A stretch of 64,000 bases of DNA from the NCBI RefSeq assembly GCF_000244895.1, contig NZ_CM001441.1, positions 1,240,001-1,304,000 of the forward strand, written 5' to 3'. Below, one piece after another: positions 11,451 through 60,244 of the stretch. Made by a program: the position numbers and the translations under genes. The stretch comes from Desulfosporosinus youngiae DSM 17734 (GTDB taxonomy: Bacteria > Bacillota > Desulfitobacteriia > Desulfitobacteriales > Desulfitobacteriaceae). The notes below the pieces were generated by a model. It was given only the letters and a program-made list of their open reading frames with translations, was not told the DNA's origin and did not search any database. Within the stretch, counting starts at the first letter, position 1; each line of letters opens with the position of its first letter.

Positions 11451-11571
11451 GGAATAACCGGCAGATCGTGTCTTTTCAGGTTCAAGCCTTTGACTAATGG
11501 ACGGGGATCTGATCATATGAAGAAGAATGCTGGCATTATGCTGTAACATGATTAGTGAAAAATTTAATAGT

Positions 11572-11740
11572 AAAAATAGGTTTCGGCAGATATCTGTTAT
11601 CTTCCGATTAAAAAGGGAAGTGGGTGAAAATCCCACGCGGTCCCGCCGCTGTATATAGAGGAGTTTTTACAAAATGCCACTGGGCAACTGGGAAGGCTGT
11701 AAAAATGTTGATACTTGAGCCAGAAGACCTGCCTATTTTC
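11572..11740 (+). ncRNA. Cobalamin (adenosylcobalamin-type) riboswitch
   Basis: The B12-box GCCACTG at 11675-11681 is followed by GGCAACTGGGAAGGC. Upstream are the AAAAATAGG...GGGAAGTGGGTGAAAATCCCACGC core and GGTCCCGCCGCTGT, and the closing strand GAGCCAGAAGACCTGCCTATTTT pairs with the 5' end. This is a complete class I cobalamin aptamer. A terminator at 11811-11850 forms the expression platform, and the transporter genes start at 12112. Binding of cobalamin is expected to switch the importer off. Confidence 0.95.
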
Positions 11741-11810
11741 ACATACCGAAGGTACTCTACGAGCGATAGGGGTGGTATAGGTGGATTAGTCAACTCGAGT
11801 AGTTGAACAA

Positions 11811-43101: not shown

Positions 43102-43240
43102 AAAGGCCCGAAAGACATGCAGAAGAATCCCTAGACCTGCAAGCAGGGCAGCTTCGTCCACAGAAGCGAACCCATTGCATGGAGAGGCGGTAAAAGCCCA
43201 CAAGACGGTGCGGGGAGACGGAGCCACGGGTTCACATCAG
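43102..43240 (+). repeat. Left half of the split 295-bp repeat
   Basis: Matches 59640-59779 at most positions, including AAGCAGGGCAGCTT, GAAGCGAACCCATTGCATGG and AGAGGCGGTAAAAGCCCAC. It ends TTCACATCAG, where the IS110 element begins. The right half resumes at 45181. The homology is at nucleotide level with compensatory-looking changes, suggesting a structured RNA. Confidence 0.85.
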
Positions 43241-43562
43241 ACCAGCTAATAGAAGTCAAGAACTTTTTCAATGAATTCACCCTTTTCACCTGTTTGAAAG
43301 AATGGTATTGCAAACAAAGCCATTGAAAAGCCGAACAATGACTAAAATAAGGGTCTCTAGTCGCTCGGCGCTAGCCAGGCAAACTCTCTTTGGTCGTGGG
43401 TGATTCTTTGGGGCAGAAGAGACTTTGCAGTCTTTAAGCGTCTGGCTACTGTGCTCGTGTCAATGGGATGCCAGCGAGCATATCCTTGGCCCTAAAGGCC
43501 TCCGGTATCCCTCGTGTCACCCTTGACACGAATTAGACAATCTGTCTTCATTGAACATGGTA

Positions 43563-44858
43563 TCAGGCCACAGCTTCACGAATCTTTGTTGCTCTCCAAG
43601 CTTGGTGGTCCTCGGGCTTTCTAAGTTCGTAGGGTTTTTGGTCACGTAGTACAGCAAAGATATAATGAAGAAGTTTGTGCATGACAGCAACGAGGGCTAC
43701 TTTTTTCTTCTTAGTGACACATTTCGAGGTATAGAATTCCCGCAAGACAGGATTAAGTCCACCCTTACTTGTTGTCCTGATACAGGCCATAGCGATCGTA
43801 AAAAGAACTCTTCTTCCAAATCGTGTACCTCGTTTGGAGATCTTGATTTTGTCACCCTTGAATTTGCCAGACTGATTAACGGAGGGATCAATCCCAAAGA
43901 AGGCTGTAAAGGCTTTGGGCGATTTAAAGAGACTAACGTCTCCAATCTCTGCAATAAGCGTAGCCGCTGTTAAAAAACCAATGCCAGGCATTTCATCGAG
44001 AAGCTCAATATTCCGTCTTGCTTCTACTGGAAACTCATTAGACTCAATCATTTTATGGATTTGTGCTTCAATCCCATTGATACTGGCCTGTATGCTCTCG
44101 ATACCATCAATATGAACGTTGATTTTAGCATCAAGTAGCGAGAATTCGCTGGGCAGTGAAGAACTAAGTTGAGCGCATTCCTGAAGTTTTCTCGCTTTCT
44201 CAGAAGCCCACTTAGTACCGTGTCGGCTTGTTTGTGAGATTAAGGAAGTAAGTGTCTCTATATCCGCCTCCTTAACGGCTCTTGGCGAAGGGTAGTTCTT
44301 TAGAACCGTTAAAGCTGTTTTTCCAAGGGCTCCAGAGAATACATGAACGAATCCCGGAAAAAGCAGGTAAAGATCCGTACAAAGTCGGTTCTTCATCTCC
44401 GTGAGCAGATCAGAATAAGTGTAGTAATCCCTCGTCATCATCCGTAGCGCTAGAATTTGGGGTTCAGGAACTATTGAAACCTTTATATCCTGATATTTAG
44501 CGAGCTTAGCAATAGCTACGGCGTCGTTTTTATCATTTTTCACTTTTCTTATGTCGATATTCTTGGTAGAATGAACACACAAAGGGTTAAGTACAAAGCC
44601 CTTGAAGTCATTCGATTTCAAGAAGAAGAAGAGTGGTAAATGAAAGATACCCGTAGATTCTACGAAGTAGATGGGCTTTCGTTCTAACCGCTCTTCTTCC
44701 TTTTTTAGAATCTCGAGCAGTTTATGAAAACCGGCAGGACTATGATCAATCCTGAAAGGCTTACGGATGAGTTCACCATTGGGAGCAAGCATAGCAACGA
44801 TAGAGAACTCGGAAGAAGCATCAATTCCGATAACGAAGTCATTCAAAAAATGGGACAA
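43563..44858 (-). CDS. IS110-family DEDD transposase (serine-containing recombinase)
   Basis: 431 residues from TTG at 44858 (GAAAGGTTGTG upstream); the frame is open to 44942 if a GTG is used. N-terminal DEDD RuvC-like domain: FVIGIDASSEFSIVAMLAPN (first Asp), YFVESTG (Glu), VKNDKNDAVAIAKLAKY (two Asp). C-terminal Tnp_20 domain: DEMPGIGFLTAATLIAEIGD, SPKAFTAFFGIDPSVNQSG with the catalytic Ser region SGKFKGDKIKISKRG. All motifs look intact, so the element may be active. Confidence 0.92.
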   Translation of the reverse strand: MSHFLNDFVIGIDASSEFSIVAMLAPNGELIRKPFRIDHSPAGFHKLLEILKKEEERLERKPIYFVESTGIFHLPLFFFLKSNDFKGFVLNPLCVHSTKNIDIRKVKNDKNDAVAIAKLAKYQDIKVSIVPEPQILALRMMTRDYYTYSDLLTEMKNRLCTDLYLLFPGFVHVFSGALGKTALTVLKNYPSPRAVKEADIETLTSLISQTSRHGTKWASEKARKLQECAQLSSSLPSEFSLLDAKINVHIDGIESIQASINGIEAQIHKMIESNEFPVEARRNIELLDEMPGIGFLTAATLIAEIGDVSLFKSPKAFTAFFGIDPSVNQSGKFKGDKIKISKRGTRFGRRVLFTIAMACIRTTSKGGLNPVLREFYTSKCVTKKKKVALVAVMHKLLHYIFAVLRDQKPYELRKPEDHQAWRATKIREAVA

Positions 44859-45057
44859 AAAAACACAACCTTTCGAAAACGATAAATCAGAGTATCCACA
44901 AATAAGAATGGCAAACAGCCTTGCTTTTGAAACGGGTAACACTAAACGTCGTGACCCAACCAGCTAACCATTGAATCATTCTTGTGGAGTGACACGCTGA
45001 TGTACGGATAAGTCCTAAAAAGGGATCCAAGGTACTGCACACGTCTATCTCTCTGAC
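44859..45057 (-). ncRNA. Candidate bridge RNA region of the IS110 element
   Basis: The non-coding end upstream of the transposase (44859-45178) is where IS110-group elements encode the guide (bridge) RNA. A TATAAT box occurs at 45065-45070 on this strand, placing a start near 45057. Extent and fold are not established; call is by family knowledge and position. Confidence 0.4.
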
Positions 45058-45180
45058 AAAAATGATTATAGCATTTATGTTTGGGATAGTGTGGTCAAAC
45101 CCATCTGAACAATGATGATTGTGTTTTCAAAGAACGTTCGGAGAGGTTTTAACCCACAAACCCTATACTTATCTTACAAG

Positions 45181-45310
45181 GTATTACCCGGAGGTTTGGC
45201 GAAGTCCCGCACCGGCGAGTGGGCCAGCCTCGGAATGCTGAGGTAAGCGGATGTGGGCGAAACTGCCCGACCCGAGGGCACTCTCTTTTTCATCCTCTGC
45301 TGGTACCTGA
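45181..45310 (+). repeat. Right half of the split 295-bp repeat
   Basis: Matches 59780-59934: GTATTACCCGGAGGTTTGGC, GAAGTCCCGCACCGGCGAGT, then GGGCCAGCCTCGG and CATCCTCTGCTGGT. It lacks the terminal GCCGCC...GGCGGC hairpin of the intact copy and ends CCTGA followed by ATAAAC. It lies 30 bp before the next gene and may form part of its leader. Confidence 0.85.
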
Positions 45311-59639: not shown

Positions 59640-59934
59640 AAAAGACCCTAAAGACCTGCGGAAGAATCCCCAGACCCGTAAGCAGGGCAGCTTTGTCCAC
59701 GGAAGCGAACCCATTGCATGGAGAGGCGGTAAAAGCCCACAAAACGGTGCGGGGAAACGTAGCCACAGGTTCACATCAGGTATTACCCGGAGGTTTGGCG
59801 AAGTCCCGCACCGGCGAGTGGGCCAGCCTCGGAGTGCTGCGGTGAGCGGATGTGGGCGAAGCTGCCCGACCCGGGAACGCTCTCGCTTTCATCCTCTGCT
59901 GGTGCCGCCTTAGCGGCATGGGCGGCTACTCCTG
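59640..59934 (+). repeat. Intact copy of the 295-bp structured repeat (possible HEARO/omega-RNA-type element)
   Basis: GC-rich, many internal hairpins (GCGGTAAAAGCCC, TTTGGCGAAGTCC, GCCGCC...GGCGGC at the end), ends CCTGA followed by ATGA. The only open frame through it is not protein-like. A second copy is split by the IS110 at 43102-43240/45181-45310 and a fragment is at 43055-43094. Length, structure, stand-alone copies and the trailing ATGA fit a HEARO-type (IscB/IsrB guide-like) RNA element; no partner nuclease is in the window. The identity is a hypothesis; the repeat is certain. Confidence 0.75.
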
Positions 59935-60244
59935 AATGACAAGAGCAAACCGTTAGTAAAGTAGCTTTTTGAGATTAAGATGAGCGCAGAGACGATTCCT
60001 CTCGGGAAGCGATCTGCGTCATTCTGTATCCAAGGGCAGTAGTTTCAATGTTGGTTGCCTTTAACCTGAACGGCAGTTAGAGATTTGGCAGTCAGTGATC
60101 AGACGAAGGATAACTGCCCAAAAGATACCTACTTAAAATGTTAAACGATAAAAGACAGATAGATTCTTCAGATTAACAACTGAGGAAGTTTCCATAATAT
60201 TTGTGCCCCAGGATGAGGAGATTTCCCTTAAGGAGAAATGAAAC

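Follow-up and report, generated by a model that had tools for sequence, protein, structure and literature searches.

The window analysed here is a stretch of 64,000 nucleotides (C1:1240001-1304000) from the 5.66-Mb single-contig genome of Desulfosporosinus youngiae DSM 17734. It holds an IS110-family element that splits one copy of a dispersed repeat, and a second, intact copy of this repeat lies near 59.6 kb (Table 1). The gene upstream of the element encodes a xanthine/uracil family permease and the gene downstream encodes a dihydroorotate-dehydrogenase-like protein with 4Fe-4S domains, so the element is intergenic. Elsewhere in the window, a strong Rfam match marks a cobalamin riboswitch at 11561-11750 on the plus strand.

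Table 1. Features of the element and its target repeat in the window (LE, left end; RE, right end; LTG and RTG, left and right target guides; LDG and RDG, left and right donor guides)
Feature	Position	Strand	Basis or remark
IS110-family element	43241..45180	-	1940 bp including one core dinucleotide; junctions read directly
Element ends	LE at 45180, RE at 43241	transposase strand minus	Terminal bases conserved in relatives
Core dinucleotide AG, RE side	43239..43240		CT on transposase strand; junction reading
Core dinucleotide AG, LE side	45179..45180		CT on transposase strand; junction reading
Split repeat, left part	43102..43240	+	91% identical to the 59.6-kb copy
Split repeat, right part	45179..45307	+	First two bases are the AG core; 91% identical to the 59.6-kb copy
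Intact repeat copy (unoccupied target)	59641..59906	+	AG core/insertion point near 59778-59780
DEDD transposase/recombinase ORF	43563..44942	-	459 aa from GTG; Pfam matches, IS621 alignment, motifs
Predicted bridge RNA, left end	44900..45075 (limits approximate)	-	Conserved in the window element and six relatives; common two-loop fold
Predicted LTG, GCAGUACCU	45030..45038	-	Target sense GTAATAC-CT: 7 matches, 1 G.T, 1 mismatch
Predicted RTG, ACAUCAG	44997..45003	-	Exact complement of target CT-GATGT
Predicted LDG, UUAGCUGGU	44959..44967	-	Identical to the element's right terminal sequence TTAGCTGGT
Predicted RDG, GCAAG	44920..44924	-	Complementary to core plus LE start CTTGT; last pair G.T
Second conserved structured block, right end	43456..43530	-	Long hairpin; alignment and fold of seven elements plus a solo homologue (L002)

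Both junctions can be read directly in the window. At RE the repeat runs through ...GGTTCACATCAG, which ends in the AG core, into ACCAGCTAATAG..., and at LE the element runs through ...CTTATCTTACAAG, again ending in AG, into GTATTACCCGGAGG... The copy at 59.6 kb is uninterrupted at this point (...GGTTCACATCAGGTATTACCC... and ...CACATCAGGTATTACC...). Comparing the filled with the empty site, we found that the AG/CT core alone is duplicated, in keeping with the shared core of about 2 nt of the IS110 group. The initial annotation had stated that the insertion point is legible to the base with the 59.6-kb copy as the empty site, and this holds, with AG on both flanks. It had also described the insert as 1938 bp plus a repeated AG, which is right because the AG starts lie 1940 bp apart. 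Nor are the limits of the element guesswork, since relatives align up to its bases 1 and 1940, with identical terminal bases. Since the transposase ORF lies on the minus strand and has IS110-type matches, the core is CT on the transposase strand, as in IS621 and as had been proposed; the putative guide RNA is also IS621-like by sequence.

The transposase ORF matches DEDD_Tnp_IS110 (PF01548, 2.6e-26) and Transposase_20 (PF02371, 4.4e-25), both above the Pfam cut-off, and it aligns with the solved transposases of IS621 (8wt6) and ISCro4. The GID, VESTG, KNDKND and QSGK motifs are all present, giving the domains and the catalytic residues (D, E, D, D and Ser) of the IS110 family. The true start probably lies further inside the ORF, before FLNDFVIGID. 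Candidate segments matching target and donor lie in the left end, on the upstream side of the transposase gene, as does the guide RNA of the IS110 group, and not in the right end, where the IS1111 group has it. We saw by eye no subterminal inverted repeats (about 7 to 17 bp, an IS1111 trait) in the terminal sequences CTTGTAAGATA and TATTAGCTGGT. The element departs from the usual long left and short right end, which is typical of the IS110 group but not strictly defining: each of the non-coding ends is longer than 230 nt, with 322 nt on the right, and elements with two long ends are on record (PMC11187229). By these sequence features, the element is a new IS110 member that would work by the published bridge-RNA mechanism.

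The length and conservation of the right end had made it a suspected site of the guide RNA; this was rejected, the target and donor matches having been found in the left end. What the right end does hold is a second conserved block with a long hairpin that shows a few compensatory changes. A solo homologue of the block, without a transposase and without element ends, lies at C1:1461313 (L002). By analogy, the block is possibly a regulatory RNA as described for ISPpu9.

The target repeat and traces of the element

The repeat that received the element is about 290-300 nt long and has at least 40 copies in this genome. It is present in 21 of 30 genomes of the genus and 36 of 74 genomes of the order, with dozens of copies per genome in Desulfosporosinus and its relatives. 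The loci surveyed were the split copy (43102-43240 plus 45181-45307), the copy at 59641-59906 and many others (L004-L033, L062-L089). In a fold shared by 46 copies, 98.1% of the pairs are kept and 44 cells change on both sides, compared to 9.4 in shuffles and no more than 6 in slid versions. Most of this compensatory signal is borne by one 10-bp helix, which encloses the insertion point in a nearly invariant part of the repeat. The repeat is not in Rfam; it behaves as a covarying, structured RNA-like family and may be an undescribed multi-copy RNA. Most repeats are followed by a hairpin tail, TTTTCATCCTCTGCTGGTGCCGC..GCGGCATGG..GGCTACTCT (59884-59940 in the window), and many have one in their upstream flank as well (L009, L015 and L021, for example), as if arranged hairpin-repeat-hairpin. 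In some genomes tandem copies lie about 340 nt apart (G001:C15).

When the genome was searched with the DNA of the whole element, the sole intact copy in the 5.66 Mb was the element itself; the other hits were a match of 42 bp at C1:3383433 and an 82% match to part of the right end at C1:1461313. At C1:3383433, an end of the element lies within another repeat copy, joined at the identical base (AAG/GTATTACC; here and below a slash marks the junction). This scar (L003) keeps at least 32 nt of LE, and on its far side it meets the repeat at GGAGAGG, seven bases that repeat and element have in common. A divergent repeat copy at C1:3018545, similar to the one with this 32-nt scar, carries no scar. 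There are two shorter scars. One (L010/L061), revealed by alignment of the repeats, has TTACA between CACATC and AG-GTATT, exactly at the core (CACATC-TTACAAG-GTATT), and the other (L060) has TTACA between CACATC and AG-GTACT, at the same base. These two identical 5-nt scars could stem from one event spread between repeats by recombination. In a pattern search, the diagnostic junction TTACAAGGTAYTACC was found at four places in the genome, which are the intact element, the 32-nt scar and the two 5-nt scars, and at none in 29 other genomes of the genus.

It is unlikely that the TTACA insertions at L010 and L060 reflect ordinary variation of the repeat instead of footprints left by the element. 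Such a reading would fit with their length of just 5 nt and with the variable length of the repeat at other points. However, the 5 nt lie exactly at the core and equal the element end, no insertion occurs there in any other of the 46 aligned copies, and L003 is unaffected by this explanation.

We found no traces of the element's ends outside the target repeat in this genome. The other IS110 elements of the genome (L048-L055) are distant, about 25-32% identical; among their loci L053 alone held a repeat copy, and that copy is uninterrupted. The initial annotation had suggested that the repeat is a preferred multi-copy target and had proposed a genome-wide look for other copies of the element, with copies at unrelated sequences counting against the idea. 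The look supports it: all four traces of the ends lie in the repeat at one base and none of this element lies at unrelated sequence, though related elements with other guides do go elsewhere. Since there is only one intact copy, the multi-copy habit rests on the three further repeat copies scarred at the identical base. The repeat may be a safe landing pad, as had also been suggested, in that it is intergenic here, but insertion may not be cost-free, because the repeat has itself the look of a structured RNA under conservation.

The predicted bridge RNA and its guides

We located the guides in an alignment of seven left ends, those of the window element and of six complete relatives, in which the segments lie at corresponding places. 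In IS621, LTG runs in the same sense as the left target with its core, and RTG complements the core plus right target (PMC11208160, PMC11208158). The RDG motif and arrangement of the window element are as published for IS621 (PMC11208158). With the window element's guides, its own target GTAATAC-CT-GATGT scores 14.5 of 16. We removed the element and scored the 7,335 CT sites of the window; with a guide register read while the target was already in view, 14.5 was reached only by the rejoined site and the 59.6-kb copy. By sequence, then, the predicted target loop matches both sides of the core with the best score among these sites, and the predicted donor loop matches the RE-core-LE junction, exactly in LDG and through GCAAG in RDG. 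A guide-derived 10-mer, TACCTGATGT, occurs 82 times in the element's own genome, compared to 5 times for the reversed control, and 27 of 30 fetched repeat loci contain it.

The alignment of left ends from the window element and its six relatives folds into two looped stems, a target and a donor stem. Taken singly, the left end of the window element folds no better than shuffled sequences do (z -1.2). The aligned left ends also show little covariation, and the main basis of the structural model of the bridge RNA is therefore its likeness to IS621. LTG of the window element lies one base further from the GGATCC anchor than those of the relatives, and base pairs of the IS621-type handshake are only partly present. 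Neither with gathering nor with permissive thresholds did Rfam yield a credible match to the bridge RNA, the right-end block or the target repeat.

Relatives with other guides and the proposed mechanism

Relatives with transposases about 76-79% identical to that of the window element, and with the same terminal bases and donor guide, are spread over Desulfosporosinus and further genera of its family; a transposase scan of the genome contigs by itself returned two of them. These relatives sit in Shine-Dalgarno sequences, AAG/GAGG: the left-end junctions outside this genome read AAGGAG or AAGGGAG in 24 of 28 cases. Since the element end supplies AAG, the joined sequence is again AAGGAGG, and the Shine-Dalgarno sequence is rebuilt. 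An ORF of at least 60 codons follows within 5-20 nt after the junction in 11 of these 28 cases, compared to 10.6% of random positions. The LTGs of the relatives read UUCCUCCU, CCUCCCU, ACCUCCU and similar, which is the complement of Shine-Dalgarno, and five copies of one relative in a single genome all lie at TCCTC/CT with the same LTG. The repeat-type target sequence is AATACCTGATGT and the Shine-Dalgarno-type is TTCCTCCT. When scored with the window element's guide, the relatives' sites reach 5.5-11. With different LTGs, different sites and these scores, guide and target differ together between relatives, while the type of recombinase, the ends and the donor guide stay constant. RTG matches are weak in the Shine-Dalgarno-type relatives, and the score of one relative (L036) is poor if no one-base bulge is permitted. 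In the transposase tree, the window element branches outside the other elements with moderate support; the tree did not settle the order in which the two kinds of targeting, Shine-Dalgarno and repeat, arose.

Solo left ends, from 5 to about 60 nt, are common beside Shine-Dalgarno sites or in the repeat (L120, L128-L134, L003, L010, L060), and solo right ends are rare. Either the solo left ends are kept as part-suppliers of Shine-Dalgarno sequences, or the loss of elements is asymmetric. In another Desulfosporosinus, a Shine-Dalgarno-type relative apparently lies inside the same repeat family at a different point (L119/L150; G004:C52, G004:C38). Judging from two contig ends, the junction there would be CAG/GAGTGAACTCATTGCATG, with the repeat resembling a Shine-Dalgarno sequence plus ATG.

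We considered that the site may have no guide, the element having landed once in the repeat by chance and the other traces having arisen by recombination between repeat copies. This would fit with the single intact copy and with the two identical scars, given that homologous recombination can exchange repeats. But the three scars lie in different repeat backgrounds (the L003 type, with its unscarred sister L032, a GTATT copy and a GTACT copy), among 7,335 sites none matches the guide better, and the relatives' guides differ along with their sites, which makes a chance landing quite improbable. It is less probable still that the recombinase protein, and not an RNA, recognizes the repeat as structured DNA or a cruciform, as might be proposed by comparison with IS110/IS1111 elements in REP or attC sites: the site does lie near the apex of the repeat's predicted fold and other family members also target foldable repeats (PMC1525189), but recombinases about 76-79% identical use Shine-Dalgarno sites without such structure, and it is the guide segment that changes with the target.

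The reading we favor, with a probability of roughly 0.88, is that this IS110 element is guided by its own left-end bridge RNA to the dispersed repeat and that the guides of its relatives are aimed at Shine-Dalgarno sequences. We infer that the left end of this IS110-group element is transcribed into a bridge RNA and that this RNA guides insertion. Its donor loop would recognize the junction at which the ends meet in the circular element, TTAGCTGGT-CT-TGTAAG (the circular form being TTAGCTGGT-CT-TGTAAGATA), and its target loop would recognize 5'-AATAC-CT-GATGT-3' in the most conserved, apical part of the repeat. The recombinase would then exchange strands at the shared CT. With about 80 sites offered by the repeat in this genome, the element would have a multi-copy target, probably mostly outside genes. 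In the relatives, recombinase, ends and donor guide are retained and the target guides are those for Shine-Dalgarno sequences, so target choice would have changed via the guide segments.

Meaning and relation to known systems

A broader picture, for which we see an even chance, is that this IS110 clade of the Desulfitobacteriaceae follows two "low-harm" strategies, the guide being the sole difference between them. The majority would enter a Shine-Dalgarno sequence and rebuild it with their own end (ACAAG/GAGG), the downstream gene staying translatable, and a single branch would target the unvarying core of the dispersed, covarying structured RNA repeat that Rfam lacks. In this view, the guide of the element may have become adapted to the part of a multi-copy RNA that is best conserved. 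What the locus offers is a clean natural pair for IS110 guide reprogramming, with closely related recombinases, the same ends and donor guide, and target guides that differ along with their matching targets. It also offers a possibly translation-neutral insertion through the rebuilt Shine-Dalgarno sequence, and a pointer to an unnamed structured repeat RNA family that is worth a study of its own. Because the mechanism is already published, the gain is in examples and testable variants and not in a new principle. In our literature search, we met no account of this element or of the target repeat, nor any IS110 element said to insert into Shine-Dalgarno sequences.

There are precedents for natural redirection, for the targeting of repeats and for targets that resemble Shine-Dalgarno sequences. 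With IS621 and the bridge-RNA IS110 elements (PMC11208160, PMC11208158), the window element shares the DEDD recombinase, the CT core and, as predicted, a left-end bridge RNA with the LTG/RTG and LDG/RDG layout. RDG ends in CAAG, as IS621 pairing requires, and both elements have a multi-copy repeat as target, REP in IS621. Unlike IS621, the window element has a longer protein and a longer right end with a second structured block; its target is a structured repeat of about 300 nt of the Desulfitobacteriaceae and not REP, and its RTG match is 7 nt and not 4. In ISEc11 and ISXne4, a case of natural redirection (PMC11187229), the target-matching RNA segments and the targets of close relatives have likewise changed together. 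Those elements are of the IS1111 type, whereas here the elements are of the IS110 type and the targets are a structured repeat and a Shine-Dalgarno sequence. The mycobacterial IS110-family element IS900 has the target motif CATGNNNNNNTCTCCTT (PMC8141618), which by our own reading complements AAGGAGA-N6-CATG, a Shine-Dalgarno sequence plus start codon. The IS900 target resembles the sites of the relatives found here, while the window element itself uses another target. Finally, ISPpu9 and other REP-targeting IS elements (PMC1525189, PMC8450116) are, like the window element, IS110-type elements confined to a dispersed repeat, although the repeat here is a different one. In ISPpu9 there is a small RNA upstream and another downstream, and the window element may have two as well.
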